From Kineococcus sp. NBC_00420 (GTDB lineage Bacteria; Actinomycetota; Actinomycetes; Actinomycetales; Kineococcaceae), in NCBI RefSeq assembly GCF_036021035.1, contig NZ_CP107930.1, positions 2,046,001-2,110,000 of the forward strand: DNA of 64,000 bases, in the 5' to 3' direction. Shown one piece after another: positions 9,700 through 63,228 of the stretch. The notes under the pieces were generated by a model, which made no database searches, was not told where the DNA came from, and saw only the letters and a program-made list of their open reading frames with translations. A program made the position numbers and the translations under genes. Positions within the stretch are counted from its first letter, which is position 1. Each line of letters opens with the position of its first letter.

Positions 9700-10602
9700 T
9701 CAGACCAGCGGATCGGCCACGATCCGGGCCAGCGTCGAGCGCCCCAGCGCGCTCATCCGCGGGTTCGTGACCTCGTAGTACCAGACGAGACCCATCGCCT
9801 GCTGGAACGCCCACGCCTGCGACCGGACCCAGGCGAGCCCGTCGCTCCCGACCGCGGTCCGGAACTCCTCCCGCTCCGGGTCGTCGAAGAGGTGCCACCC
9901 GACGACCAGGTCGAGCGCGGGGTCCGCCGGCGCGAGGCCCCCGACGTCGAGGACACCGGCGAGGCGCCCCGCGGCGACGAGCACGTTGCCCGGGACGAGG
10001 TCCCCGTGCACGACGACGTCAGCCGACACGTGCGGCAGCCGCCGGAACCCCGACCACAGCGCCCGCAACCGCGCGACGTCGAGGAGGTCGCGGAGGTCCT
10101 CGCTCCGCTCGAAGCACTCGGCCATCCACGCGTCGTGCGCGTGCAGGTCACCCCCGCGACCCGGACCAGTGAAGCGCCTGCCGTGCAACGGGAGGGAGCG
10201 CACGTCGCGGACGAACCCGGCGAGGTCGCGGGCCAGTTCCGCGCCGTGGGCCACGTCGACCTCGTCCGCGGTGGTGCCCGGCAGCCAGGTGAAGACCGAC
10301 CACTCGAAGGGGTACCCCTCCCCCGGCGCTCCGAGCGCCACCGGTTCCGGGGTGGGGAACCGGGTGACCCCGAGGAGCTCGCGGGCGGCCTCGACCTCGC
10401 GGCGCACGAGCCCGGCCGCTCCGGGGTGCAGCGGCAACCGCACCACCCACCGCTCCCCCAGCCGGAACACGGCGTTCACCGTCCCCGGTCCGTCGAGGGC
10501 GCGGACCGGTTCGTCCCGCCAGCGCGGGAACTGCCCGGCCACGAGCCGCCTCACCAGCTCGGCACTCACGTCGACCTGGTCCTCGTGCATCGGCAGCGTC
10601 AC
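9700..10602 (-). CDS. Aminoglycoside-phosphotransferase-family kinase
   Basis: The 300-residue protein has the APH/ChoK-like kinase fold: an N-lobe with FRLGERWVVRLPLHPGA, the catalytic loop VVHGDLVPGNVLV, and the metal-binding region LDVGGLAPADPALDLV. The canonical DFG-like Asp is retained as DVGG. Chromosomal relatives phosphorylate diverse small molecules, so resistance should not be assumed. The GTG start at 10602 overlaps the cutC stop as GTGA, which suggests translational coupling to CutC. Confidence 0.8.
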   Translation of the reverse strand: MTLPMHEDQVDVSAELVRRLVAGQFPRWRDEPVRALDGPGTVNAVFRLGERWVVRLPLHPGAAGLVRREVEAARELLGVTRFPTPEPVALGAPGEGYPFEWSVFTWLPGTTADEVDVAHGAELARDLAGFVRDVRSLPLHGRRFTGPGRGGDLHAHDAWMAECFERSEDLRDLLDVARLRALWSGFRRLPHVSADVVVHGDLVPGNVLVAAGRLAGVLDVGGLAPADPALDLVVGWHLFDDPEREEFRTAVGSDGLAWVRSQAWAFQQAMGLVWYYEVTNPRMSALGRSTLARIVADPLV

Positions 10603-11297
10603 GACATCGCCCCCACGGCCGCGGTGACGAGGTCCGGATCGGTCCGGTACCGGGCCCCGAACCCCGCGTCGGCGGCCAGCAGCGACCGGGCCGAGAGGTG
10701 GACGGCACCCACGCCGGTGGCGGCCACCAGGTCCGGGACCCGCTCGGGACGCACCCCGCCGCCCGCCATCACCGTGAGCCGGCCGGCCGCCGCCACGACG
10801 GCGCGGGCGATCCGGTCGGTCCCGTCGTGGGCGGAAGACGCACCCCCGGACGTGAGGACGCGGTCCGCACCGACGGCCAGGAGGTCCTCGACGCCGGACT
10901 CGACGTCGGGGTTCACGTCGAAACCCCGGTGGGCGGTGAGTTCCGCACCCGCGGCGACGTCACGGAGGCGACGCAGGGCGTCGAGGTCGAGACGTCCGTC
11001 GGACCGCAGCGGCCCCACGACGATCCCCGCGGCGCCCGCCCCGAGCACCGTCCCGGCGTCGCGCAGGACGATCGCGAGGTCGTCCGCGTCGTGGACGAAG
11101 TCGCCCGGCCGGGGCCGGAGCAGGACGTGCACCCCGACCGGTCCGGCAGCCTCGACCGCCCGTTCGACGAGGCCGAGCGACGGGGTCAGACCGCCGACCT
11201 CCAGGGCCACGCACAACTCCACCCGGTGCGCGCCGGCGGCGCGGGCGACCCGCACCCCGTCGACGTCGGTCACGGCCACTTCGACGACGGTGCTCAC
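10599..11297 (-). CDS. cutC: CutC-family protein
   Basis: The 232-residue TIM-barrel protein has the CutC landmarks VELCVALEVGGLTPS, VLLRPRPGDFVH, LTAHRGFDV, VLTSGGASSAHDG and VMAGGGVRPE. CutC was first linked to copper homeostasis in E. coli, but its direct role in copper handling is doubted and the enzymatic function is unknown. The GTG at 11297 gives the family length; longer in-frame extensions would enter the upstream epimerase-like gene. It shares a GTGA junction with the kinase downstream. Confidence 0.85.
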   Translation of the reverse strand: MSTVVEVAVTDVDGVRVARAAGAHRVELCVALEVGGLTPSLGLVERAVEAAGPVGVHVLLRPRPGDFVHDADDLAIVLRDAGTVLGAGAAGIVVGPLRSDGRLDLDALRRLRDVAAGAELTAHRGFDVNPDVESGVEDLLAVGADRVLTSGGASSAHDGTDRIARAVVAAAGRLTVMAGGGVRPERVPDLVAATGVGAVHLSARSLLAADAGFGARYRTDPDLVTAAVGAMS

Positions 11298-11316
11298 GCC
11301 CCCACCCTGTCGGGCC

Positions 11317-12210
11317 TCAGGCGAAGTAGCCACCCCCGGCGAGGTCCTCGCCCAGCGTCGGACCGGCCGGTTCCCAGCCGAGCAGGGCCCGGGTCCTGAG
11401 GCTGGAAGCCTGCAGGTCGAGCGCGAAGAACGTCCCGATCCAGCCGAAGTGGTCGGTGGCCGCTTCCGGGGCGACGGGGACCACGGGGAGGTCGAGCCCC
11501 GCGCCGATCGCGGTGGCGATCTCCTTCGTGGTGATCCCCTCCTCGGCGACGGAGTGCAGGACGTTGCCGGCGGGGGCACACTCGACGGCGAGACGGACCA
11601 TGCGGGCCGCGTCGGTGACGTGGACCGCCGACCAGTGGTTCGAGCCGTCACCGACGTACCCGGAGGAACCCGCCGCCCGTGCGGCGGCGACGAGGGCGGC
11701 GATGAAACCGTGGTCCCCGGCGCCGTGGACGGTCGGGGCGAACCGGGCGGCCAGGACCCGCACCCCCTTCTGCGCGTACTCGAGGGCGAGGTTCTCCGCC
11801 CCGCCCCGGAAGGAGTCGAGGCCGTACGAGGGGTTGACGTCGTCCTCGGTGCCGGCCCGGCCCCGGGCGATGCCACCGAGGCCGCTGGCCATCAGGAACG
11901 GTCGGTCGGAACCCACGAGGGTGTCCGCGATCGTCTGCACCGCAGCACGTTCGGCGGCGTTGGAGACGGCCGGGTTCGCGAAGTCGTGCTTGTTGGCGAG
12001 GTGGACGGTGCCCTCGGTGGACTCCGCGCCGCGGCGCAGGGCGTCGAGGTCGTCGAGGTCGCCGCGCAGGACCTCGGCCCCCTTGGCCTGCAGCGCGGCG
12101 GCGGAGGCGTCGGAGCGCGCCAGGCCGAGGACCTGGTGCCCGTGGGCGAGGAACTCGTCGACGGTGTGCGAACCGATCCAGCCCGATGCTCCGGTGATGA
12201 AGACGCGCAC
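11317..12210 (-). CDS. Extended SDR/NAD-dependent epimerase-like oxidoreductase
   Basis: The 297-residue protein starts with MRVFITGASGWIGSHTVDEF, a GxxGxxG Rossmann motif of atypical extended SDRs. YGLDSFRGGAEN occupies the usual YxxxK position, with Tyr but no lysine four residues on, so catalysis may be altered or absent. The GTG at 12210 has GAGGAG upstream. It is divergent from a second TetR gene with two operators between, and is probably its target. The arrangement repeats that at 4913-6599. Confidence 0.8.
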   Translation of the reverse strand: MRVFITGASGWIGSHTVDEFLAHGHQVLGLARSDASAAALQAKGAEVLRGDLDDLDALRRGAESTEGTVHLANKHDFANPAVSNAAERAAVQTIADTLVGSDRPFLMASGLGGIARGRAGTEDDVNPSYGLDSFRGGAENLALEYAQKGVRVLAARFAPTVHGAGDHGFIAALVAAARAAGSSGYVGDGSNHWSAVHVTDAARMVRLAVECAPAGNVLHSVAEEGITTKEIATAIGAGLDLPVVPVAPEAATDHFGWIGTFFALDLQASSLRTRALLGWEPAGPTLGEDLAGGGYFA

Positions 12211-18886: not shown

Positions 18887-18897
18887 CGACGGGCTGC

Positions 18898-18924
18898 GGG
18901 ACGGGAGGCGGGACGGGAGGCGGG
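18898..18924 (+). repeat. 12-bp tandem repeat with G-quadruplex potential
   Basis: The unit GGGACGGGAGGC occurs twice (18898-18909, 18910-18921) and begins a third time. This gives five GGG runs separated by 2, 4, 2 and 4 nt on the coding strand, 11 nt after the stop of the GGDEF gene, which fits the usual G-quadruplex pattern. Confidence 0.7.
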
Positions 18925-18960
18925 ACGAGGTCCTGGGGAGTCCTCGCGGAGATCCGGTGA

Positions 18961-55262: not shown

Positions 55263-55358
55263 GGGACGGTCCTCTCGAGTGCGCGGTGGGTGTGCTCGTA
55301 GGGTGAGCGCTCGGGCCCCCGCGGGGACAGAGCTGCAGCGCCAGAGATGGACGGCCCC

Positions 55359-55379
55359 ACCTTGTGGATCTCACAAGGT
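55359..55379. promoter_or_regulatory. Operator-like palindrome between SARP and PucR/CdaR-like genes
   Basis: ACCTTGTG (55359-55366) and CACAAGGT (55372-55379) are perfect 8-bp arms around a 5-bp centre in the 138-bp divergent region, 21 bp before the right-hand start. It does not resemble the SARP heptamers, so the neighbouring PucR/CdaR-like protein is the likelier binder. Confidence 0.7.
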
Positions 55380-55400
55380 CCACAGCTGGAGGGGGAACCG

Positions 55401-56597
55401 GTGACCGGAACGTCCGAGCGGACCGAGCGCGGGGCCGACCGGCCCCCGATCACGACGCTGACGGAACTCTTCACCCGCGCCCAGGACAGCGTTCCCGCCC
55501 TGACCCTGGAGGTCATCGACCTCATCCACGACCGGGTGGTGGAGTACGGCTCGACGACGGTGACCCAGCAGATCGGGCACACCGAGGGTCAGCTCCGCGA
55601 CTTGGTGACCGGGCTGGCCTGCGGTCGGGGCCCCGACGACCGCGAACTCGGAGCGGCTCGCGACCTGGGCCGGCAGCGGGCCCTCGACCGCGTCCCGCTG
55701 CACGCACTGATCAGCGCCTTCCAGGTCGGTTTCCAGCGGCTCTGGGCCCACCTGCAGGAACTCGCCCGGGAGTCCGGGCGCCAGGAGCTGCAGCTGGACC
55801 TGCTGGCGGGCGTCGACGGCGTCTGGTCCTGGATGCAGGCCATCACCGCGGCCGCCTCCCAGGCCCACAGCGAGGCCACCGTGGCCCTGGAGGCGGTCGA
55901 CATCCGCTCCACCCACCGCTTCGTGCAGGCCCTCAGCCAGGGCGACGTCGAACGCGACGTCGCCGAACGCGCCGCGGTCAGCCTGGGCTACGACCTCGCG
56001 GGGCAGTTCCAGGTGGTGTGCTGGTCGGTCGGCGGCTGGTCGGAACTGCAGGTGCAGCGCTGGCACGAACGCGACGGGGTACCGCGGCCGGCGACGCAGC
56101 ACCTGCAGGTCGCCGGCGTCGGGCAGACCATGGTCGCCGTCCTGCAGGGCACGGACCCCGCGAAGCTCGTCGCCCGGGTCCACCGGGTCGACCCCGCCGC
56201 CCGGGTCGGCGTGGGCCTGAGCCGTCCGGGCGTCCCGGGGGCGGTCGACAGCTACCGCGACGCCGTCCTCTGCCTGGCCCACGCCGACCCCCGCCGACCG
56301 GTCGTGGCCTTCGAGCAGTGGTGGCTCCCGGTCAGCCTGAGCGAGCAGGCCCCGCGGTTGCGCCAGGTGCTCGAACCCGGCCTGCGGGCCGCCGTGGACA
56401 ACCCGCACCTGCTCCAGACGGTCACCGCCTTCGCCGACGCGGGGTCGTCGCTGTCGGCCACGGCGAGCGCCCTGCACGTGCACGTCAACACCGTCCGCTA
56501 CCGCCTCGACCGCTGGCGGACGCTGACCGGGTGGGACCCGACGACGTGGGACGGGTTGTGCCGCACGCTCCTGGTCGACTGGACCCGCGACGGGTGA
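55401..56597 (+). CDS. PucR/CdaR-type HTH regulator
   Basis: The 398-residue protein has an N-terminal helical domain (RsbRD/PucR_1-like, about residues 20-165: FTRAQDSVPALTLEVIDLI, HALISAFQVGFQRLW), a central region resembling CdaR GGDEF-like domains, and a C-terminal HTH_30 (SSLSATASALHVHVNTVRYRL, about 350-395). Proteins of this plan regulate diverse genes in actinobacteria, often next to specialised-metabolism genes. GTG at 55401 has GGAGGGGGA upstream; extensions would cross the palindrome. It is divergent from the SARP and may control it. Confidence 0.84.
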   Translation: MTGTSERTERGADRPPITTLTELFTRAQDSVPALTLEVIDLIHDRVVEYGSTTVTQQIGHTEGQLRDLVTGLACGRGPDDRELGAARDLGRQRALDRVPLHALISAFQVGFQRLWAHLQELARESGRQELQLDLLAGVDGVWSWMQAITAAASQAHSEATVALEAVDIRSTHRFVQALSQGDVERDVAERAAVSLGYDLAGQFQVVCWSVGGWSELQVQRWHERDGVPRPATQHLQVAGVGQTMVAVLQGTDPAKLVARVHRVDPAARVGVGLSRPGVPGAVDSYRDAVLCLAHADPRRPVVAFEQWWLPVSLSEQAPRLRQVLEPGLRAAVDNPHLLQTVTAFADAGSSLSATASALHVHVNTVRYRLDRWRTLTGWDPTTWDGLCRTLLVDWTRDG

Positions 56598-56633: not shown

Positions 56634-57818
56634 TCAGACGAACGCCGCCACCTGCTCCTGCGAGCCCAGCAGGGTGCGGGCGTAGACGTCGACGTTGAGC
56701 CCCGGGGCGAGCAGCGGGTGGCGGGAGAGGACCTCCACGTCGCGCCAGACGGCCTGCAGCGGGTTGCCCGCGGCGAAGGAGCGGGCCCCGCCGGCGTCGA
56801 GCAGGTGCCCCAACGCCGCGCGCGTGGAGACGGTGATCGTGGCCAGGTCCGCCCGCACGCGCGCCCGGGTCGCGACGTCGAGCTGACGTCCCTCCCGCGC
56901 CCCCCGCTCGACGTCGCCGGTGGCGCGGGCCAGGTGCAGGCCGGCGGTGTCCACCAGCCGGGCGGCGCTCGCCACGTCGAACCGCACGCCCGGCGCGTCC
57001 CGCGCGTCGGCGTAGGTGGAGGAGGCGAGCGGACGGCCCTTCCCGAGGGCGTCGAGCACGAGCTCGAGACCGGCGCGCGCCATCCCCACCAGGACGGCAC
57101 CGGCGCACACGCCCAGGGCCGAGTAGGCGGTCGTCGACCGCAGGGGGTCGGCCGCGTCCGGCGCGCCCGCCCCGAGGAGGGCCGCGAACGGCGCGCAACG
57201 CCGCTGCGGCACGAGGACGTCCTGCGCGACGGCGGTGTCGCTGCCCGTGCCCGCCATCCCGACGACGTCCCAGGTGGGTTCGACGTCCAGCGCCTCGACG
57301 GGGACGAGAACCGCCTCCACCGCGGGCCGTTCGTCCTGGACGTCCTGGACGAGGACGGGCAGCAACGCCCACCGCGCGTGGTGGATGCCCGACATCGGCT
57401 GCCAGCGTCCGCTGACCCGCAACCCGCCGGGGACGCGGCGGCCGGTGCCGGTGGGGAAGAAGCTCCCGCACACGCCGGCGCGCGGGTCGTCGGCCCACAG
57501 CTCCTCGCGACCGGCCGCGGGGAACCGGGAGGCGAGCAGGCCGGCGCCGGAGAGGATCACCGCGCACCACGCGGCCGACCCGGACCCGCGGGCCAGTTCG
57601 GCGTGCACGTCCACGGCGGTCGCGATCGAGGCGCCGAGGCCACCGAGGGCGGCGGGGGCGTGCAGGGCGAAGAACCCCGCCTCGTGCAGGGAGCGCGCGT
57701 CTGCCGGGGTCAGGCGGTGCCCCCGTTCCGCCGCCGGTGCCCCCGCACGCAGCGCCGGGACGAGATCGCAGGCGGCCGCCACGAGGTGGTCGCGGGCGGC
57801 CGGTCGGGTGTCGTTCAC
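56634..57818 (-). CDS. Acyl-CoA-dehydrogenase-fold flavin monooxygenase (group D type)
   Basis: The 394-residue protein has an acyl-CoA dehydrogenase fold with the C-terminal domain of the Acyl-CoA_dh_2 group (HsaA/DszC-like): LHEAGFFALHAPAALGGLGA, GSGSAAWCAVILSGAG, VSGRWQPMSGIHHARW, and ARATGDVERGAREG with NPLQAVWRDVEVLSRH near the end. Members hydroxylate aromatic or polyketide substrates with reduced flavin from a partner reductase; none is encoded in this cluster. The GTG at 57818 overlaps the glycosyltransferase stop as GTGA and has GAGGAGGA upstream. It is the second gene of a leftward SARP-site-controlled operon. Confidence 0.85.
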   Translation of the reverse strand: MNDTRPAARDHLVAAACDLVPALRAGAPAAERGHRLTPADARSLHEAGFFALHAPAALGGLGASIATAVDVHAELARGSGSAAWCAVILSGAGLLASRFPAAGREELWADDPRAGVCGSFFPTGTGRRVPGGLRVSGRWQPMSGIHHARWALLPVLVQDVQDERPAVEAVLVPVEALDVEPTWDVVGMAGTGSDTAVAQDVLVPQRRCAPFAALLGAGAPDAADPLRSTTAYSALGVCAGAVLVGMARAGLELVLDALGKGRPLASSTYADARDAPGVRFDVASAARLVDTAGLHLARATGDVERGAREGRQLDVATRARVRADLATITVSTRAALGHLLDAGGARSFAAGNPLQAVWRDVEVLSRHPLLAPGLNVDVYARTLLGSQEQVAAFV

Positions 57819-59131
57819 GGGGTCCTCCTCGGGTCGGTTCCGGCGTGCGTGACCGTTCCGAGCGGGCGACGGGCGCTGGTCGCCAGCTCGATCTCCGTCG
57901 CCGCGGCCCGGGCACCGTCCTCCTGCCCCAGGGCGGCACCGATCGAGCGTGCACGTCCGGCGGCCGCCTCGGTCAGGACGCCGCGGAGGGCCTCGACCAG
58001 CCGGGGGGCCGTCAGGTCGCGGAACGGGAACCAGGCGCCGATGCCGAGGTCGTGCAGGCGTCCGCCCCAGAAGGGCTGGTCGAAGGAGACGGCGCAGACG
58101 ACGGTCGGCAGCCCGGCGGTCACGGAGGCCGCCGTCGTCCCGGCGCCCCCGTGGTGAACCGCGGCGGCGCAGCGCGGGAACAGCAGCGTGTGGTCCACCG
58201 GCCCGACGACGCGGACCCGCTCCGTCGCGTCCGCCGCGGCGAGGTCGGTCCACCCGGCCCCCACCAGCCCGCGGACCCCCAGTTCCCGGCACACGGCCTG
58301 CACCAGGGCGAAGAGGGCGGCGGGATCGGCGACGGGCATGCTGCCGAACCCGAAGAACACCGGCGCCTCGCCCGCGCGCAGCCACTCCTCCAGGTCCGCG
58401 TCCCACGTCGCCTCGCCCCAGCGCTCCCGTTGCTCCGGCGTCGCCACGACGGGCCCGGTGAGCGGGAACCGCGGCGACCAGGATCTCAGTTCCGGGACCA
58501 GCGCCTCGCCGTAGGCCTGCAGTTCCAGCGCACCGGCCTGCGCCAGGCGCCGGGCGATCGGGACGGTGATCGCGGGCAGGCCCACGGAGCGGCGGAAGGC
58601 GTTGGTGTAGCCCGCGGTGGCCTTCTGCTCCCACCGGGCGTACAGGGCGTGGGTCGCCCGGTTCAGGGGCCGGGGAACGCGTCGCCGCGTCAGCATGAAC
58701 GACGGGAAGGCGGAGTTCGCCCGTCGGGGGGCGTGGTGGATCGCGACGACCGCGGCCCCCGACGCCTCGGCCAGGCACGACGCCTCGTCCAGCAGCAGGG
58801 TGTTCGAGACGATGACGTCCGCGCCCTCGCAGGCCCGGACCATCGCGGGGTGCAGGACGTCCGCGTGGACGGCCTTCATCCGCACGAAACCCTCCAGGTA
58901 CTGGTGGACGTCGGAGTTCCGGAGGAACTCCTGGCCCTGGTCGGAGCGGAGGAACGCGCGCATGTCGAACCCGAACGGGACCACGGGGAGGCCGAGGGCC
59001 TCACCGAAGTGGGTGAGGTCGTCGGTGGTGGCCAGCACGACCTCGTGGCCGCGGCGGACCAGTTCGGCTCCGAGGACGGCGGCCGGCTGGACGTCGCCGC
59101 GGGAACCCATGGCCAGGAGTGTGATGCGCAC
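57815..59131 (-). CDS. GT1-family glycosyltransferase
   Basis: This 438-residue GT-B enzyme is like those acting on sterols, macrolides and other lipophilic acceptors. The N-terminus reads MRITLLAMGSRGDVQPAAVL, followed by VRRGHEVVLATTD. The donor-binding region has VFFGFGSMP, RCAAAVHHGGAGTTAASV (PSPG-like HHGGAGT) and GLPTVVCAVSFDQPFWGGRL. It transfers an NDP-sugar to a small-molecule acceptor; neither is known. No deoxysugar genes are nearby, so a common NDP-hexose is likely. The GTG at 59131 has GAGGTGGG upstream. It is the first gene of the leftward operon behind heptamer array 1. Confidence 0.9.
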   Translation of the reverse strand: MRITLLAMGSRGDVQPAAVLGAELVRRGHEVVLATTDDLTHFGEALGLPVVPFGFDMRAFLRSDQGQEFLRNSDVHQYLEGFVRMKAVHADVLHPAMVRACEGADVIVSNTLLLDEASCLAEASGAAVVAIHHAPRRANSAFPSFMLTRRRVPRPLNRATHALYARWEQKATAGYTNAFRRSVGLPAITVPIARRLAQAGALELQAYGEALVPELRSWSPRFPLTGPVVATPEQRERWGEATWDADLEEWLRAGEAPVFFGFGSMPVADPAALFALVQAVCRELGVRGLVGAGWTDLAAADATERVRVVGPVDHTLLFPRCAAAVHHGGAGTTAASVTAGLPTVVCAVSFDQPFWGGRLHDLGIGAWFPFRDLTAPRLVEALRGVLTEAAAGRARSIGAALGQEDGARAAATEIELATSARRPLGTVTHAGTDPRRTP

Positions 59132-59438
59132 GGTCAGCCCACCTCGGTTCCGCGGAGTGCTGCGGGCGGACGGTACCGCCGCGCACGGGTCGGGGTTCGG
59201 GTGACGGTGACCACGGGTGCTGCCTCCGGTGCTCGGTGGGGCGGGACGTGCTCGACGGGTGCTGGCACCAGTGCCGCACGGGGTTGTCGACGTGGCGTGG
59301 ACGTCTCGTCGACGCGGAAAACCGAGGACCAGCGGACCTTCTGCTGCACAACGGCTCTCGACCGGCCGACGCGAGGCCGGAACTCATGCCCGTCCTTCCG
59401 TGGACGGCGCGGTCCCCCGCGGCCGGTAGTTTCCCAGC
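59132..59438. other. 307-bp divergent control region
   Basis: This gap separates the glycosyltransferase (leftward) and MBL (rightward) genes. It holds the SARP-type heptamer array at 59286-59314, a GGTGC-TG-GCACC palindrome near 59258-59269, a small CCGTCC/GGACGG hairpin (59390-59407), and a -10 TAGTTT (59427-59432) for the MBL gene. No convincing small gene was seen; short open frames here lack coding signs. Confidence 0.7.
59286..59314 (-). promoter_or_regulatory. SARP-type heptamer array 1
   Basis: GTCGACG, GTGGACG and GTCGACG start at 59286, 59297 and 59308: three heptamers with an exact 11-bp period (4-bp spacers). On the leftward transcribed strand they read CGTCGAC, CGTCCAC, CGTCGAC. 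This matches the geometry of known SARP sites. It lies 155 bp before the glycosyltransferase start. Confidence 0.82.
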
Positions 59439-60233
59439 ATGAACAGTTCCAGGAGACCGGTGCACGTCCGTCGTCCCGCGGGAGGCTGGGAACTCCTCCA
59501 GATCGCACCCGAGGTGTTCTGCGCGCGGACGCCCCTCGCGAACTGGTACCTGCTGCGCGACGGGCGCGACCTGACCCTGATCGACGCCGGCTACCCCGGC
59601 CACGGGGAACTCGTGCTGGCCTCCGTCGCGGCGCTGGGGCACCAGCCCCGCGACGTCCGTGCGGTCCTGGTGACCCACGCCCACGTCGACCACGTCGGAG
59701 GGCTGGGCGCCGTGCTGCGCGCGGTGCCGGGGGTCCCCGTGCTGCTGGACCCCGCCGAGGTCGCGCACGCCCGTCGCGAGCACCTGGAACAGGTCGGCGT
59801 CCCGACGGTGCTGCGCCAGGCGTGGCGTCCCCGCGTCGCGGCCTGGGCCGTGCGGGCGGTGCGCAGCGGCGGCACCCGGGACGTGCGGATCGCCGACGCG
59901 CAGGCGTTCCCGTCCCCCCGCGCCGGCGCGGCCCTCGACGTCCCCGGCCGCCCCGTGCCGGTGCCGACCCCCGGGCACACCAGCGGGCACAGCGCGTTCC
60001 TCCTCCCCGACCTGGGTGTGGTCCTGACGGGCGACGCCCTCGTGACGGGACACCCGCTCAGCGCGGTCGAGGGCCCGCAACTGCTGCGGGGTTTCTTCCA
60101 CCACGACCCGGCGGCCACCGCGGCGGCCCTGGACGTGCTGGCTGCGGTGCCGGCGGACGTCATCGGTCCCGGGCACGGCGTCCCGCTGGAGTTCCCGCTG
60201 GACCGGGCGGTGGCCGCCGCGCGGTCGCGCTGA
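59439..60233 (+). CDS. Metallo-beta-lactamase-fold hydrolase of the SARP cluster
   Basis: The 264-residue MBL protein has VTHAHVDHVGGLG (HxHxDH: His80, His82, Asp84, His85), VPTPGHTSGHSAFLLPD (next His), LTGDALVTGHP (bridging Asp) and IGPGHGVPL (last His), so all metal ligands are present. It resembles glyoxalase II-like and lactonase-like hydrolases; in biosynthetic loci such proteins cleave thioesters, lactones or serve self-protection. The ATG at 59439 has no ribosome-binding site but lies 6 nt after TAGTTT, so it is probably leaderless. Confidence 0.85.
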   Translation: MNSSRRPVHVRRPAGGWELLQIAPEVFCARTPLANWYLLRDGRDLTLIDAGYPGHGELVLASVAALGHQPRDVRAVLVTHAHVDHVGGLGAVLRAVPGVPVLLDPAEVAHARREHLEQVGVPTVLRQAWRPRVAAWAVRAVRSGGTRDVRIADAQAFPSPRAGAALDVPGRPVPVPTPGHTSGHSAFLLPDLGVVLTGDALVTGHPLSAVEGPQLLRGFFHHDPAATAAALDVLAAVPADVIGPGHGVPLEFPLDRAVAAARSR

Positions 60234-60238
60234 CGAGA

Positions 60239-60290
60239 CGTCGACACGGGCGTCCACGGGGCGTCCACGCGGCGTCGACACGTCGTCGAC
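60239..60290 (+). promoter_or_regulatory. SARP-type heptamer array 2
   Basis: CGTCGAC, CGTCCAC, CGTCCAC, CGTCGAC and CGTCGAC start at 60239, 60251, 60262, 60273 and 60284: five repeats with steps of 12, 11, 11 and 11 bp. They use the same two variants as array 1 and face the rightward FAD oxidase operon. The array ends 71 bp before the start codon. Confidence 0.85.
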
Positions 60291-60293
60291 GGG

Positions 60294-60350
60294 CAGGAGG
60301 TGGAGTGGTCCACGACGCCGGAACGAGCGGCGACCACGTTCCACCTCCTG
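60294..60350 (+). promoter_or_regulatory. 5'-leader hairpin abutting the FAD-oxidase ribosome-binding site
   Basis: CAGGAGGTGGA (60294-60304) and TCCACCTCCTG (60340-60350) pair over 11 bp, with an inner TGGTC/GACCA stem (60306-60310, 60332-60336). The last paired G is the first base of the GGAG (60350-60353) used by the GTG at 60362. It could regulate translation or end leader transcripts. Confidence 0.65.
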
Positions 60351-60361
60351 GAGACGATGCT

Positions 60362-61792
60362 GTGAAGAACGCTGTGGACACCGCGACCGGGCAGTCCCCG
60401 GTCACCCCCGCCCTGGACGGCCTCGACGCCCTGGTCGGTGCCGTGGACGGGCAGGTCCTGCTCCCGGGCGACGACGGGTACGCCGCCGAGTGCTCGCCCT
60501 ACAACCTCGCCGTGGCCCACGCGCCGGCAGTCGTCGTCGGTGCCGCGAGCGCCGCCGACGTGCAGGCCGCGGTGCTCTTCGCGGCCCGCCGGGGACTGCC
60601 GGTGGCCGTGATGGCCACCGGTCACCAGGGTTCGCCGTCCACCGACGGTGCGGTGCTGATCACCACCCGCCGGATGGACGACGTGAGCGTCGACCCCGTC
60701 CGGCGCACGGTGCGCGTGGGGGCCGGGGTCCGCTGGCAGGCGGTGGTGGACGCCGCCGCCGAGCACGGGCTCGCCCCGCTCAACGGGTCCTCGCCCCTGG
60801 TCGGCGTGGTCGGCTACACCCTCGGCGGGGGGTTGAGTCCCACGATGGGCCGCGCCCACGGCTGGGCCTCCGACCACGTCACCGCCCTCGACGTCGTGAC
60901 CGCCGACGGGCGGCTGCACCACCTCGAGAACCGGCCGGACTCCCCCGACGCCGACCTGTTGTGGGGTCTGCTGGCCTCCAAGAGCAACGTGGGGATCGTC
61001 ACGGCGCTGGAGTTCGGGTTGTTCCCCGTGACCCACCTGCACGCCGGGGGGTTGTTCTTCGCCGGTGAGCACGCCGGAGCCGTGCTGTCCGCCTACGCCG
61101 ACCTGACCGCGAACGCCCCGGACGAACTCACCACCTCGATCGCGCTGACGCGCTTCCCGCCGCTGCCGTTCCTGCCGGACTTCCTCAGCGGGAAGTTCGC
61201 GGTGCACGTGCGTTTCTCCCTCCTCGGAGACGCGGCCACGGCCGACGCGTTGCTCGCGCCGTTGCGCGGGTGCGCCCCGGTGGTGCTGGACACGGTCGCC
61301 GAGATCCCCTACCGGGAGAACGCGGCCATCCACGACGATCCCGTCGACCCGGCGCCCTTCGTCCAGCGCACGGTGCTGCTGCGGGAGTTCACGCCCGGGT
61401 CGCTGGCCGACCTCGTCGACCTGTTCGGTCCCGACTCCGACTGCCCGGCGCACATCGTGGAACTGCGCCAGCTCGGTGGTGCGCTCGCCACGAACCCCGA
61501 CCTGCCCTACGCCGCAGCGCACCACGACGCCGCGTTCGCGTTGTGCGTCTTCGTCATCGGCCCGGCGCAGGCCGGCCCGGCGTCGGCGTGGACGGACCGG
61601 GCGTTCCGTCGCCTGGAACCGCACTCGGCGCCGGGCACGTACGCGAACTTCGTCGCGGCCTGGGACACCGACCCCGAGGACGTCCGCCGGGCCTACCTGC
61701 CCGAGACCTTCGCCCGTGCGCAGCGGGTGAAGGCGACCTACGACCCGCAGAACCTGTTCCGCCTCAACCACAACGTCCTGCCCCGCTCCTGA
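60362..61792 (+). CDS. FAD-linked (berberine-bridge-type) oxidoreductase
   Basis: The 476-residue PCMH-type FAD enzyme with C-terminal BBE segment has LPVAVMATGHQGSP (His88 is the likely covalent FAD link), VGAGVRWQAVVDAAAEHGLA, VVGYTLGGGLSPTMGRAHG (with the cysteine of bicovalent members absent), and YDPQNLFRLNHNVLP at the end. Such oxidases use O2 to oxidise alcohols, sugars or polycyclic intermediates and are frequent in natural-product clusters. The GTG at 60362 has GGAG upstream; the frame is open far upstream, but only as antisense coding. It leads a rightward operon with the SnoaL-like gene. Confidence 0.88.
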   Translation: MKNAVDTATGQSPVTPALDGLDALVGAVDGQVLLPGDDGYAAECSPYNLAVAHAPAVVVGAASAADVQAAVLFAARRGLPVAVMATGHQGSPSTDGAVLITTRRMDDVSVDPVRRTVRVGAGVRWQAVVDAAAEHGLAPLNGSSPLVGVVGYTLGGGLSPTMGRAHGWASDHVTALDVVTADGRLHHLENRPDSPDADLLWGLLASKSNVGIVTALEFGLFPVTHLHAGGLFFAGEHAGAVLSAYADLTANAPDELTTSIALTRFPPLPFLPDFLSGKFAVHVRFSLLGDAATADALLAPLRGCAPVVLDTVAEIPYRENAAIHDDPVDPAPFVQRTVLLREFTPGSLADLVDLFGPDSDCPAHIVELRQLGGALATNPDLPYAAAHHDAAFALCVFVIGPAQAGPASAWTDRAFRRLEPHSAPGTYANFVAAWDTDPEDVRRAYLPETFARAQRVKATYDPQNLFRLNHNVLPRS

Positions 61793-61815: not shown

Positions 61816-62328
61816 ATGACCACGCGAACCCTCACCACCGAAAGCGCGACGTCCGCGGAACTCAGCCACCTCGTGGACCACCACGAGGTCGTCGACGCCG
61901 TCCTGCGCTACACCCGCGCCCTGGACCTCGCCGACGCCGACCTCATGACCTCGGCGCTCACGCCGGACGCGACCGTCGACCTCACCCCGGCCACGGCGAA
62001 GATCGGTCTGGAGTTCCCCGTCCTGACGCCCCGGGAGACCGTCGTGGGCGCTCTCGTCGGCGCCGTCGGTCCCCTGGACACCAGCCACAGCGTCACCAAC
62101 CCGCGCAGCGAGATCACCGGCGACACCGCCGTCCTGACCTGCTACGCCCAGGCCATGCACTTCCTGCCCGGCCAGGGACCCGACCCCGTCCAGACCCGGC
62201 ACGCCCTGATGATGAACCGCTACACCGCCCGGCTCGTGCGTGACGGGGCCACGTGGCGCATCCAGCACCTCAGCATCGACAGCGCCTGGTTCGAGGGTGA
62301 CCCGACCGTCCTGGTCTCCCAGGTCTGA
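61816..62328 (+). CDS. SnoaL-like (NTF2 fold) protein of the SARP cluster
   Basis: The 170-residue protein of the SnoaL_4/scytalone-dehydratase-like group has HHEVVDAVLRYTRALDLADADL at the start, TDATVDLT-type strand (ALTPDATVDLTP), and HALMMNRYTARLVRDG with WRIQHLSIDSAWFEGD near the end. Relatives act as dehydratases, cyclases or ring hydroxylase partners. It follows the FAD oxidase after 23 nt, so the two are probably co-expressed under heptamer array 2. The active-site acid/base pair cannot be assigned without structure. The ATG at 61816 follows GGAGAACGAGA. Confidence 0.84.
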   Translation: MTTRTLTTESATSAELSHLVDHHEVVDAVLRYTRALDLADADLMTSALTPDATVDLTPATAKIGLEFPVLTPRETVVGALVGAVGPLDTSHSVTNPRSEITGDTAVLTCYAQAMHFLPGQGPDPVQTRHALMMNRYTARLVRDGATWRIQHLSIDSAWFEGDPTVLVSQV

Positions 62329-62481: not shown

Positions 62482-63228
62482 ATGAACGCAGCACTCACCG
62501 GCAAGACGGCCCTGGTGACCGGCGGGACCTCCGGCATCGGCCTGGCGGTCGTCCGCCGGTTCGTCGAGGAAGGGGCCCACGTCGTCGTGACCGGGCGGCG
62601 CCAGACGCAGCTCGACGCGGTCGCGGCCGAACTCGGCGACGCGGTGACCACCGTGCAGGCCGACGCCTCCGACCCGGCGCAGGTGAACGCCCTGTTCGAG
62701 GCCGTCGCCGCTCGCGGCACCGGACTGCACGCGGTCCACGTCAACGCCGGCGGCGGGGAGTTCAAGCCCCTGGCCGAGGTCAGCGCGCAGGACATCGACA
62801 CCGCCTTCGCGACCAACGTCCGCGGCACGATCCTCACCGTGCAGGGCGCGCTGCCCTTCCTCGGGGAAGGCGCCGCGATCGTGGTGACCGGCTCCACCGC
62901 CGGATCGGGGACGGAGAAGGACTTCGGCCTCTACGGCGCCTCGAAGGCCGCGGTGGCGACGCTGACCCGCACCTGGGCCGCCGAGCTCGCCCCGCGCGGG
63001 ATCCGCATCAACACCGTCGTCCCCGGCCCCACCGAGACGCCGGGACTGACCGGTCTGGCCCCGGGCAACGAAGCCGGTCTCCTGGCGGCCATCGCCGCCG
63101 GGCTGCCCTTCGGCCGGGTCCTGCGCCCCGAGGAGGTCGCCGCCACCGTCCTCTTCCTCGTCTCCGACCAGAGCTCCGGCATGACCGGCGGCGAGGTCTT
63201 CGTCGACGGCGGCTCCACCATCGCCTGA
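62482..63228 (+). CDS. SDR oxidoreductase
   Basis: The 248-residue classical SDR has TGGTSGIGLAVVRRFVEEG, NAGGGEFKPL, Ser in VTGSTAGSG, YGASKAAV (YxxxK) and VDGGSTIA at the end. Such SDRs next to TetR operators and MFS exporters are common, often with the TetR gene on the other side. The ATG at 62482 has GGAG upstream. It is followed after 54 bp by an MFS gene on the same strand. Whether it belongs to the SARP cluster is open: its promoter is of another type. Confidence 0.87.
   Translation: MNAALTGKTALVTGGTSGIGLAVVRRFVEEGAHVVVTGRRQTQLDAVAAELGDAVTTVQADASDPAQVNALFEAVAARGTGLHAVHVNAGGGEFKPLAEVSAQDIDTAFATNVRGTILTVQGALPFLGEGAAIVVTGSTAGSGTEKDFGLYGASKAAVATLTRTWAAELAPRGIRINTVVPGPTETPGLTGLAPGNEAGLLAAIAAGLPFGRVLRPEEVAATVLFLVSDQSSGMTGGEVFVDGGSTIA

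Follow-up and report, generated by a model that had tools for sequence, protein, structure and literature searches.

The window, by which we mean the whole 64-kb stretch of DNA that was analysed, contains a small cluster of genes around a regulator of the SARP family, with two arrays of phased heptamers placed between its genes (Table 1). Gene families were assigned with Pfam and NCBIfam, and nine proteins of the window were compared with Pfam. Several more specific functions named by NCBIfam, such as Rgt (rifamycin-inactivating) and class B3 beta-lactamase, were rejected on scores far below the curated cut-offs.

Table 1. Genes, heptamer arrays and candidate promoter elements of the cluster, in window coordinates.
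Feature	Position	Strand	Remarks
SARP regulator, medium-sized, 669 aa	53253..55262	-	Trans_reg_C, BTAD and NB-ARC domains
PucR-type regulator	55347..56597	+	adjoins the SARP gene; C-terminal HTH; disfavoured as binder of the arrays
HsaA-like flavin monooxygenase	56634..57818	-	acyl-CoA dehydrogenase fold; second gene of the glycosyltransferase operon; family match below the curated cut-off
Glycosyltransferase	57815..59131	-	EryCIII-like C-terminal and GT28 N-terminal domains; first gene behind array 1
Candidate -10 hexamer GGCACT	59270..59275	-	at +17 from the first base of array 1's last heptamer; weak, 1/3
Array 1	59286..59314	-	three copies of CGTCSAC at an 11-bp period, oriented towards the glycosyltransferase operon
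MBL-fold hydrolase	59439..60233	+	between the arrays
Array 2	60239..60290	+	five CGTCSAC heptamers, spacing 12, 11, 11, 11, reading towards the FAD-oxidase operon
Candidate -10 hexamer TGGAGT	60301..60306	+	at +17 from the first base of array 2's last heptamer; 2/3
BBE-type FAD oxidase	60362..61792	+	closest to BagK/FevA1, with 478 bits against a curated cut-off of 800
SnoaL-like protein	61816..62328	+	Pfam
SDR oxidoreductase	62482..63228	+	probably in the operon of the FAD oxidase and SnoaL-like genes, judging from spacing

All eight heptamers listed in the preliminary description were found at the positions given there. On the minus strand, array 1 reads CGTCGAC (59308), CGTCCAC (59297) and CGTCGAC (59286); array 2 reads, on the plus strand, CGTCGAC (60239), CGTCCAC (60251), CGTCCAC (60262), CGTCGAC (60273) and CGTCGAC (60284). 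The 11-bp period that had been described for both holds for the two steps of array 1 and the last three of array 2, whereas the first step of array 2 is 12 bp, leaving its first copy 1 bp out of phase. Heptameric direct repeats at this period are therefore present in both promoters, with the one 12-bp step in array 2, and their linkers vary from copy to copy while the heptamers are conserved. The arrays had also been placed ahead of both operons of the cluster. Their reading directions agree with this, but the MBL-fold gene that lies between them had been missed: array 1 occupies the divergent gap between the glycosyltransferase and MBL genes, and array 2 the gap between the MBL and FAD-oxidase genes. 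The SARP gene itself has no array in front of it. One 11-bp step ahead of array 2, overlapping the stop of the MBL gene, the window reads CGCTGACGAGA (60228-60238), a stretch similar to the unit with which array 1 opens (CGTCGACGAGA) and possibly the decayed remnant of a sixth repeat.

We scanned the window without any preset pattern for heptamers repeated three times at a fixed period with at least 20/21 matches. At an 11-bp period only two places were recovered in the 64 kb, namely arrays 1 and 2, which bears out the earlier statement that the window holds no such array elsewhere. The same scan gave no places at a 10-bp period and, at 12 bp, one unrelated match with a G-rich repeat, GGACGGG (18887-18930). 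No CGTCSAC triple at 11 bp occurred in any of 200 windows simulated under a Markov-1 model, compared with three overlapping triples observed. A motif search over the genome, proposed in the preliminary description, was carried out on the single contig of 5.43 Mb. Three-copy arrays are restricted to this cluster: the relaxed pattern YGTCNAC x3 at 11 bp gave its only matches here (three, overlapping), and the reversed pattern gave none in the genome. The pair CGTCSAC-N4-CGTCSAC occurs 12 times, five of them at these arrays; the remaining seven fall at six places, one of which is counted on both strands. When up to two mismatches are allowed the pair is not rare, with 35 occurrences in the window against 22.9 expected. 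CGTCGAC is itself common, with 162 copies on both strands of the window (the genome is 73% GC), and for this reason single words and isolated pairs carry little meaning, while phased runs do.

The abundance of CGTCGAC is also what a reading of the arrays as chance or as a decayed tandem repeat would draw on, together with a feature of the class-wide sample. YGTCNAC x3 was found in 9 of 393 other genomes of the class and in 2 of 10 genus-mates (G002, G009), with no known link to a SARP of this kind. In six of the nine class-sample genomes (G102, G286, G367 and G358 among them) the linkers are equal or almost equal, as in plain tandem repeats; they differ in G351, G301 and G365. In the window the linkers differ while the heptamers are kept, and the simulations, the recurrence of such arrays near related SARPs and the -10 offset (both described below) speak against coincidence as well, so we regard this explanation as scarcely credible. 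The class-wide matches were rejected as SARP targets, as the 14-19 kb around those of G351, G301, G365, G387 and G182 hold no homologue of ten window genes, the SARP included, at E <= 1e-6. The G351 match (L260, C2:1523235) reads TGTCAAC-N4-TGTCTAC-N4-TGTCAAC, with no SARP homologue in the surrounding 19 kb.

Other wide matches were likewise set aside. A link between the motif and the FAD-oxidase family as such was rejected: among 39 upstream regions scanned for three phased heptamers (9 of the 20 of one locus set and 30 further loci, part of the matches listed), two have the pair, those of the window and of L164 in G527. When all 20 loci of the first FAD-oxidase set were searched for the exact pair, only the window's own was found. 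A single pair at a Saccharothrix locus (L097), where the SARP is the only homologue of window genes in 21.7 kb, was taken as chance.

The gene that had been called a SARP is one. Its product carries an OmpR-type DNA-binding domain (PF00486, residues 37-106, 2.3e-10), a BTAD (PF03704, residues 115-262, 4.4e-35) and an NB-ARC domain, and no TPR family matched at E 0.001. An assignment to AfsR proper was rejected, since the NCBIfam AfsR equivalog scores 460 bits against a cut-off of 1430 and covers only residues 9-628; on its sequence, the protein is a medium SARP and not AfsR itself. The residues by which AfsR contacts DNA and the sigma factor have been reported (PMC10936776). In an alignment to 8k60, with residue positions counted by hand, the DNA-contact residues Q48, W74, P79, T88, R92 and R94 are identical in the window SARP, and K95 is replaced by R and S46 by T. 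Two of the sigma-contacting residues are kept (E68, E77) and two others differ, with E in place of D71 and G in place of E76. According to the same source, R92 touches the third-base T of the repeat, and the base pair touched by T88 differs between AfsR's two repeats. In the window that third-base T is constant in 8/8 heptamers, and their varying position, position 5, is the one contacted by T88 in the AfsR repeats.

Nine of the 10 other genomes of the genus matched in a search with the SARP, none of them closely; the matches span 31-45% identity over parts of the protein, and the top score corresponds to 40% identity over residues 6-497. We therefore based the comparison on relatives of the regulator and not on orthologous operons. 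FAD-oxidase genes adjoin SARPs in genus-mates too (L125, L126, L128), with no CGTCSAC array seen upstream of them at these three loci. A BagK/FevA1-like FAD oxidase lies close to a SARP gene at L125, L126, L128, L130 and L134, as in the fev/bag clusters. At L126 of a genus-mate, where the linked SARP differs, CTGCAAC, CCACAAG and CTGCAAC were noticed by eye at 11 bp upstream of the FAD-oxidase match at 10158(-).

Among the matches listed from the collection of named genomes, the closest relative of the SARP is from Planotetraspora thailandica (47%). We examined five genomes of this one genus (G527, G547, G582, G565 and G485). The nearest relatives of the window SARP are the proteins named SARP1 here, found in G527 and G547 at 45-47% identity to it and 84% identical to each other. 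By identity alone, AfsR-like proteins of Streptomyces (47-51%) are roughly as near to the window SARP. In a 61-row tree the window SARP forms one group with both SARP1 rows (100/94), to which other short SARPs are joined (98/92); a 23-row tree again places it with SARP1 (99/94), all of these groupings being splits and not demonstrated clades, as the trees carry long-branch warnings and no outgroup. If either the window SARP or SARP1 is omitted, the other stays on the sister group's side of a 100/99 branch, opposite 14 long AfsR-like rows. TPR families were unmatched in SARP1 of both genomes and in the sister SARP of G527.

The 9.2-Mb genome of G547 has two YGTCNAC x3 arrays and no more. They form a divergent pair in the gap between a methyltransferase gene (PF04072) and a gene of the catalase family (PF00199), the latter being the single gene that separates them from SARP1. 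G527 has the same divergent methyltransferase/catalase promoter pair, carrying two-copy and partial arrays, and no three-copy array (YGTCNAC x3) anywhere in its genome despite the presence of SARP1. The Planotetraspora arrays read CGTCNAC towards their own gene and differ chiefly in the fifth base (G, C or T), more rarely in the first. Those at L228 and L230, which are less regular, were missed by the motif-free scan at 20/21 or 25/28 and found by motif. In whole-genome searches of the three congeners G582, G565 and G485, the best SARP1 match reaches 46-47% and the best catalase match 28-30%, and no three-copy array was found. SARP, target genes and arrays are consequently co-present or co-absent within Planotetraspora, in a manner that agrees with recognition of the arrays by the SARP and equally with co-inheritance. 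Isolated CGTCSAC pairs were rejected as evidence: the three genomes without SARP1 have 2, 4 and 4 of them, and G547 has seven, none on the SARP contig. Exact pairs were counted only when they lie in a target promoter.

At the G527 locus (L025), SARP1 is encoded at 9914-11911 and two divergent FAD-oxidase genes, 50% identical to that of the window, lie within ~8 kb. Upstream of the minus-strand gene lies CGTCGAC-N4-CGTCCAC. A LuxR-type regulator (recognised by eye) and a second, small SARP are encoded between SARP1 and the FAD-oxidase genes, and as this small SARP is nearer to the array-bearing gene, the pair could be a target of either SARP1 or the small SARP. In both G527 and G547, the FAD-oxidase genes that adjoin SARP1 show no array.

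These loci bear on the question of which protein binds the arrays. The PucR-type regulator encoded beside the SARP is a cluster-situated candidate with a C-terminal HTH. When ten window genes were compared with the Planotetraspora loci L228-L231 (in part for the transporter; E <= 1e-6), however, only the SARP and the FAD oxidase had homologues, so that the PucR-type regulator has none at these loci; the head-to-tail 11-bp arrangement is moreover SARP geometry and does not favour it. Binding by this protein is thus highly improbable. Operators of another OmpR/PhoB-type regulator, for instance a PhoP-like response regulator or the genome's other AfsR-like SARP, deserve more weight. AfsR and PhoP have been reported to bind overlapping 11-bp repeats (PMC10972967), the genome encodes one further SARP-like match (36% identical, in a 1074-aa open frame), and G527 has its second SARP in the same cluster. 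A global regulator, on the other hand, should have sites elsewhere, whereas the three-copy arrays of this genome are found only here. AfsR-like paralogues are present in 5/5 Planotetraspora genomes, and yet the arrays are confined to the two genomes with SARP1, as three copies in G547 and in partial form in G527. In the 32 kb of G547 that were searched, SARP1 is the single SARP, and nothing there corresponds to the second SARP of G527. We consider an alternative regulator of this type unlikely. The second SARP of G527, the lack of a three-copy array in that genome and the rootless tree have nevertheless raised its standing and lowered our confidence in the cluster's own SARP.

The sister group of short SARPs offers a further array. 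A motif-free scan of five sister-group SARP loci found CGTGAAC/CGTGAAG/CGTGCAC/CGTCAAC at 11 bp (25/28) in G527 (L265:6159-6202), upstream of NmrA-like and luciferase-like genes followed by the sister-group SARP gene. TTTGAT stands at +17 from its last repeat; the region aligns across the loci of five species, all having TTTGAT or TTTCAT in this position, and its repeats are less regular in the other four. In Nonomuraea dietziae (L070:9865-9897), three copies of TCAACGC at a period of exactly 11 bp lie shortly before a SARP gene, possibly as an autoregulatory array.

The position of the arrays relative to the promoters was examined by comparison with AfsR. In standard numbering the second repeat begins at -29 and the -10 element spans -12 to -7. 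The upstream AfsR repeat is reported to occupy -40 to -30 within a 22-bp box, and the 3' repeat of SARP sites to lie 8 bp from the -10 element (PMC10936776). Taken together, these values lead one to expect a hexamer at +17, counted from the first base of the last heptamer. Matches to T1, A2 and T6 were scored in five non-orthologous promoters; the orthologous G527 copies of two of them were displayed but left out of the score. At +17 the matches amount to 9/15, against at most 4 at 37 other offsets, with the reservation that there is some freedom in deciding which repeat counts as the last and that the sites had been viewed by eye at +17 before the scripted scoring. The binomial chance of this score is 3e-5 to 2e-4, assuming independence. 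The two window promoters alone give a weak 3/6, and the result derives mostly from the Planotetraspora promoters. With that weighting, the offset agrees with the earlier claim, made from the asymmetric heptamers, that each array reads CGTCSAC towards its own operon.

The interpretation of the arrays as SARP sites, put forward in the preliminary description, is supported in silico by their restriction to this cluster in the genome, the recurrence in Planotetraspora, the -10 offset and the domains of the SARP. Since similar arrays adjoin related activators in a distant bacterium, we predict that they are landing sites of a SARP. They are very probably SARP-type operators, the SARP of the cluster being the most likely ligand, and we hold with good though not complete confidence that they act as operators of two promoters activated by this protein. 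From the sequence we infer the following scheme. SARP protomers would sit side by side on the DNA, one per 11-bp repeat, on operators overlapping the -35 region, so that the last repeats would place the SARP against region 4 of the sigma factor of RNA polymerase. This contact would compensate for a poor -35 element and allow transcription from the -10 hexamer. Array 1 would in this way control the glycosyltransferase/HsaA-like operon, and array 2 the FAD oxidase/SnoaL operon, probably together with the SDR and transporter genes. The NB-ARC part would probably gate activity through nucleotide binding, as reported for AfsR.

A more general and distinctly tentative proposal, which we would put at somewhat less than an even chance, is that the short NB-ARC SARPs without TPR (that of the window, SARP1 of Planotetraspora and the sister group) share a CGT-N-N-A-C code, with the T of position 3 fixed and positions 4-5 conferring specificity, so that regulons could be read from genome sequence. 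If it is true, the targets of a genome's SARP could be identified from the phased arrays of that genome; the code is testable on a few related activators that differ in their heptamers. For the uncharacterised cluster itself, the analysis provides a sequence-level prediction of the regulon and a likely activator to overexpress. It also indicates that a SARP operator can be recognised in raw sequence when several features, namely uniqueness, orientation and distance to the -10 element, are considered together.

A full-text literature search with the exact word CGTCGAC found no published SARP site of the CGTCSAC type; in PMC3367932 and PMC6692506 these letters belong to primers. No literature joining Kineococcus, 'biosynthetic gene cluster' and SARP was found. 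Several known systems are nevertheless similar in part. The operators of the ActII-ORF4/DnrI type consist, like array 1, of three heptameric repeats upstream of cluster operons (PMC10972967). ActII-ORF4 is a small SARP, unlike the regulator of the window. Regulators of that type have a TCGAG-type heptamer. The PimR operator resembles the window in its heptamer triplet with 4-bp spacers (CGGCAAG x3, kept in other species) and differs in the heptamer, in belonging to a SARP-LAL and in not overlapping the -35 box (PMC5930380); spacers of SARP sites in general are reviewed as 4-15 nt (PMC10972967). In the ferroverdin and bagremycin clusters, as in the window, a SARP (FevR/BagI) is linked to an FAD-dependent oxygenase of the same family (FevA1/BagK) (PMC6692506). 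The 3,4-AHBA synthase, DhnA-type aldolase and o-aminophenol oxidase of those clusters are absent among the nine window proteins searched against Pfam. A further parallel is AfsR with its box in the afsS promoter of Streptomyces coelicolor, which shares with the window SARP the DNA-binding, BTAD and nucleotide-binding domains and the contact residues. AfsR differs in its C-terminal TPR and its two repeats, where the window has a 669-aa protein and three and five repeats of another heptamer. The AfsR repeat, CGTT(T/C)ATCGNN (PMC10972967), agrees with CGTCSAC at positions 1-3 and 6. The proposed mechanism and the family are known ones, those of a classical SARP promoter pair, and the heptamer CGTCSAC and the target cluster appear to be new within the literature searched.
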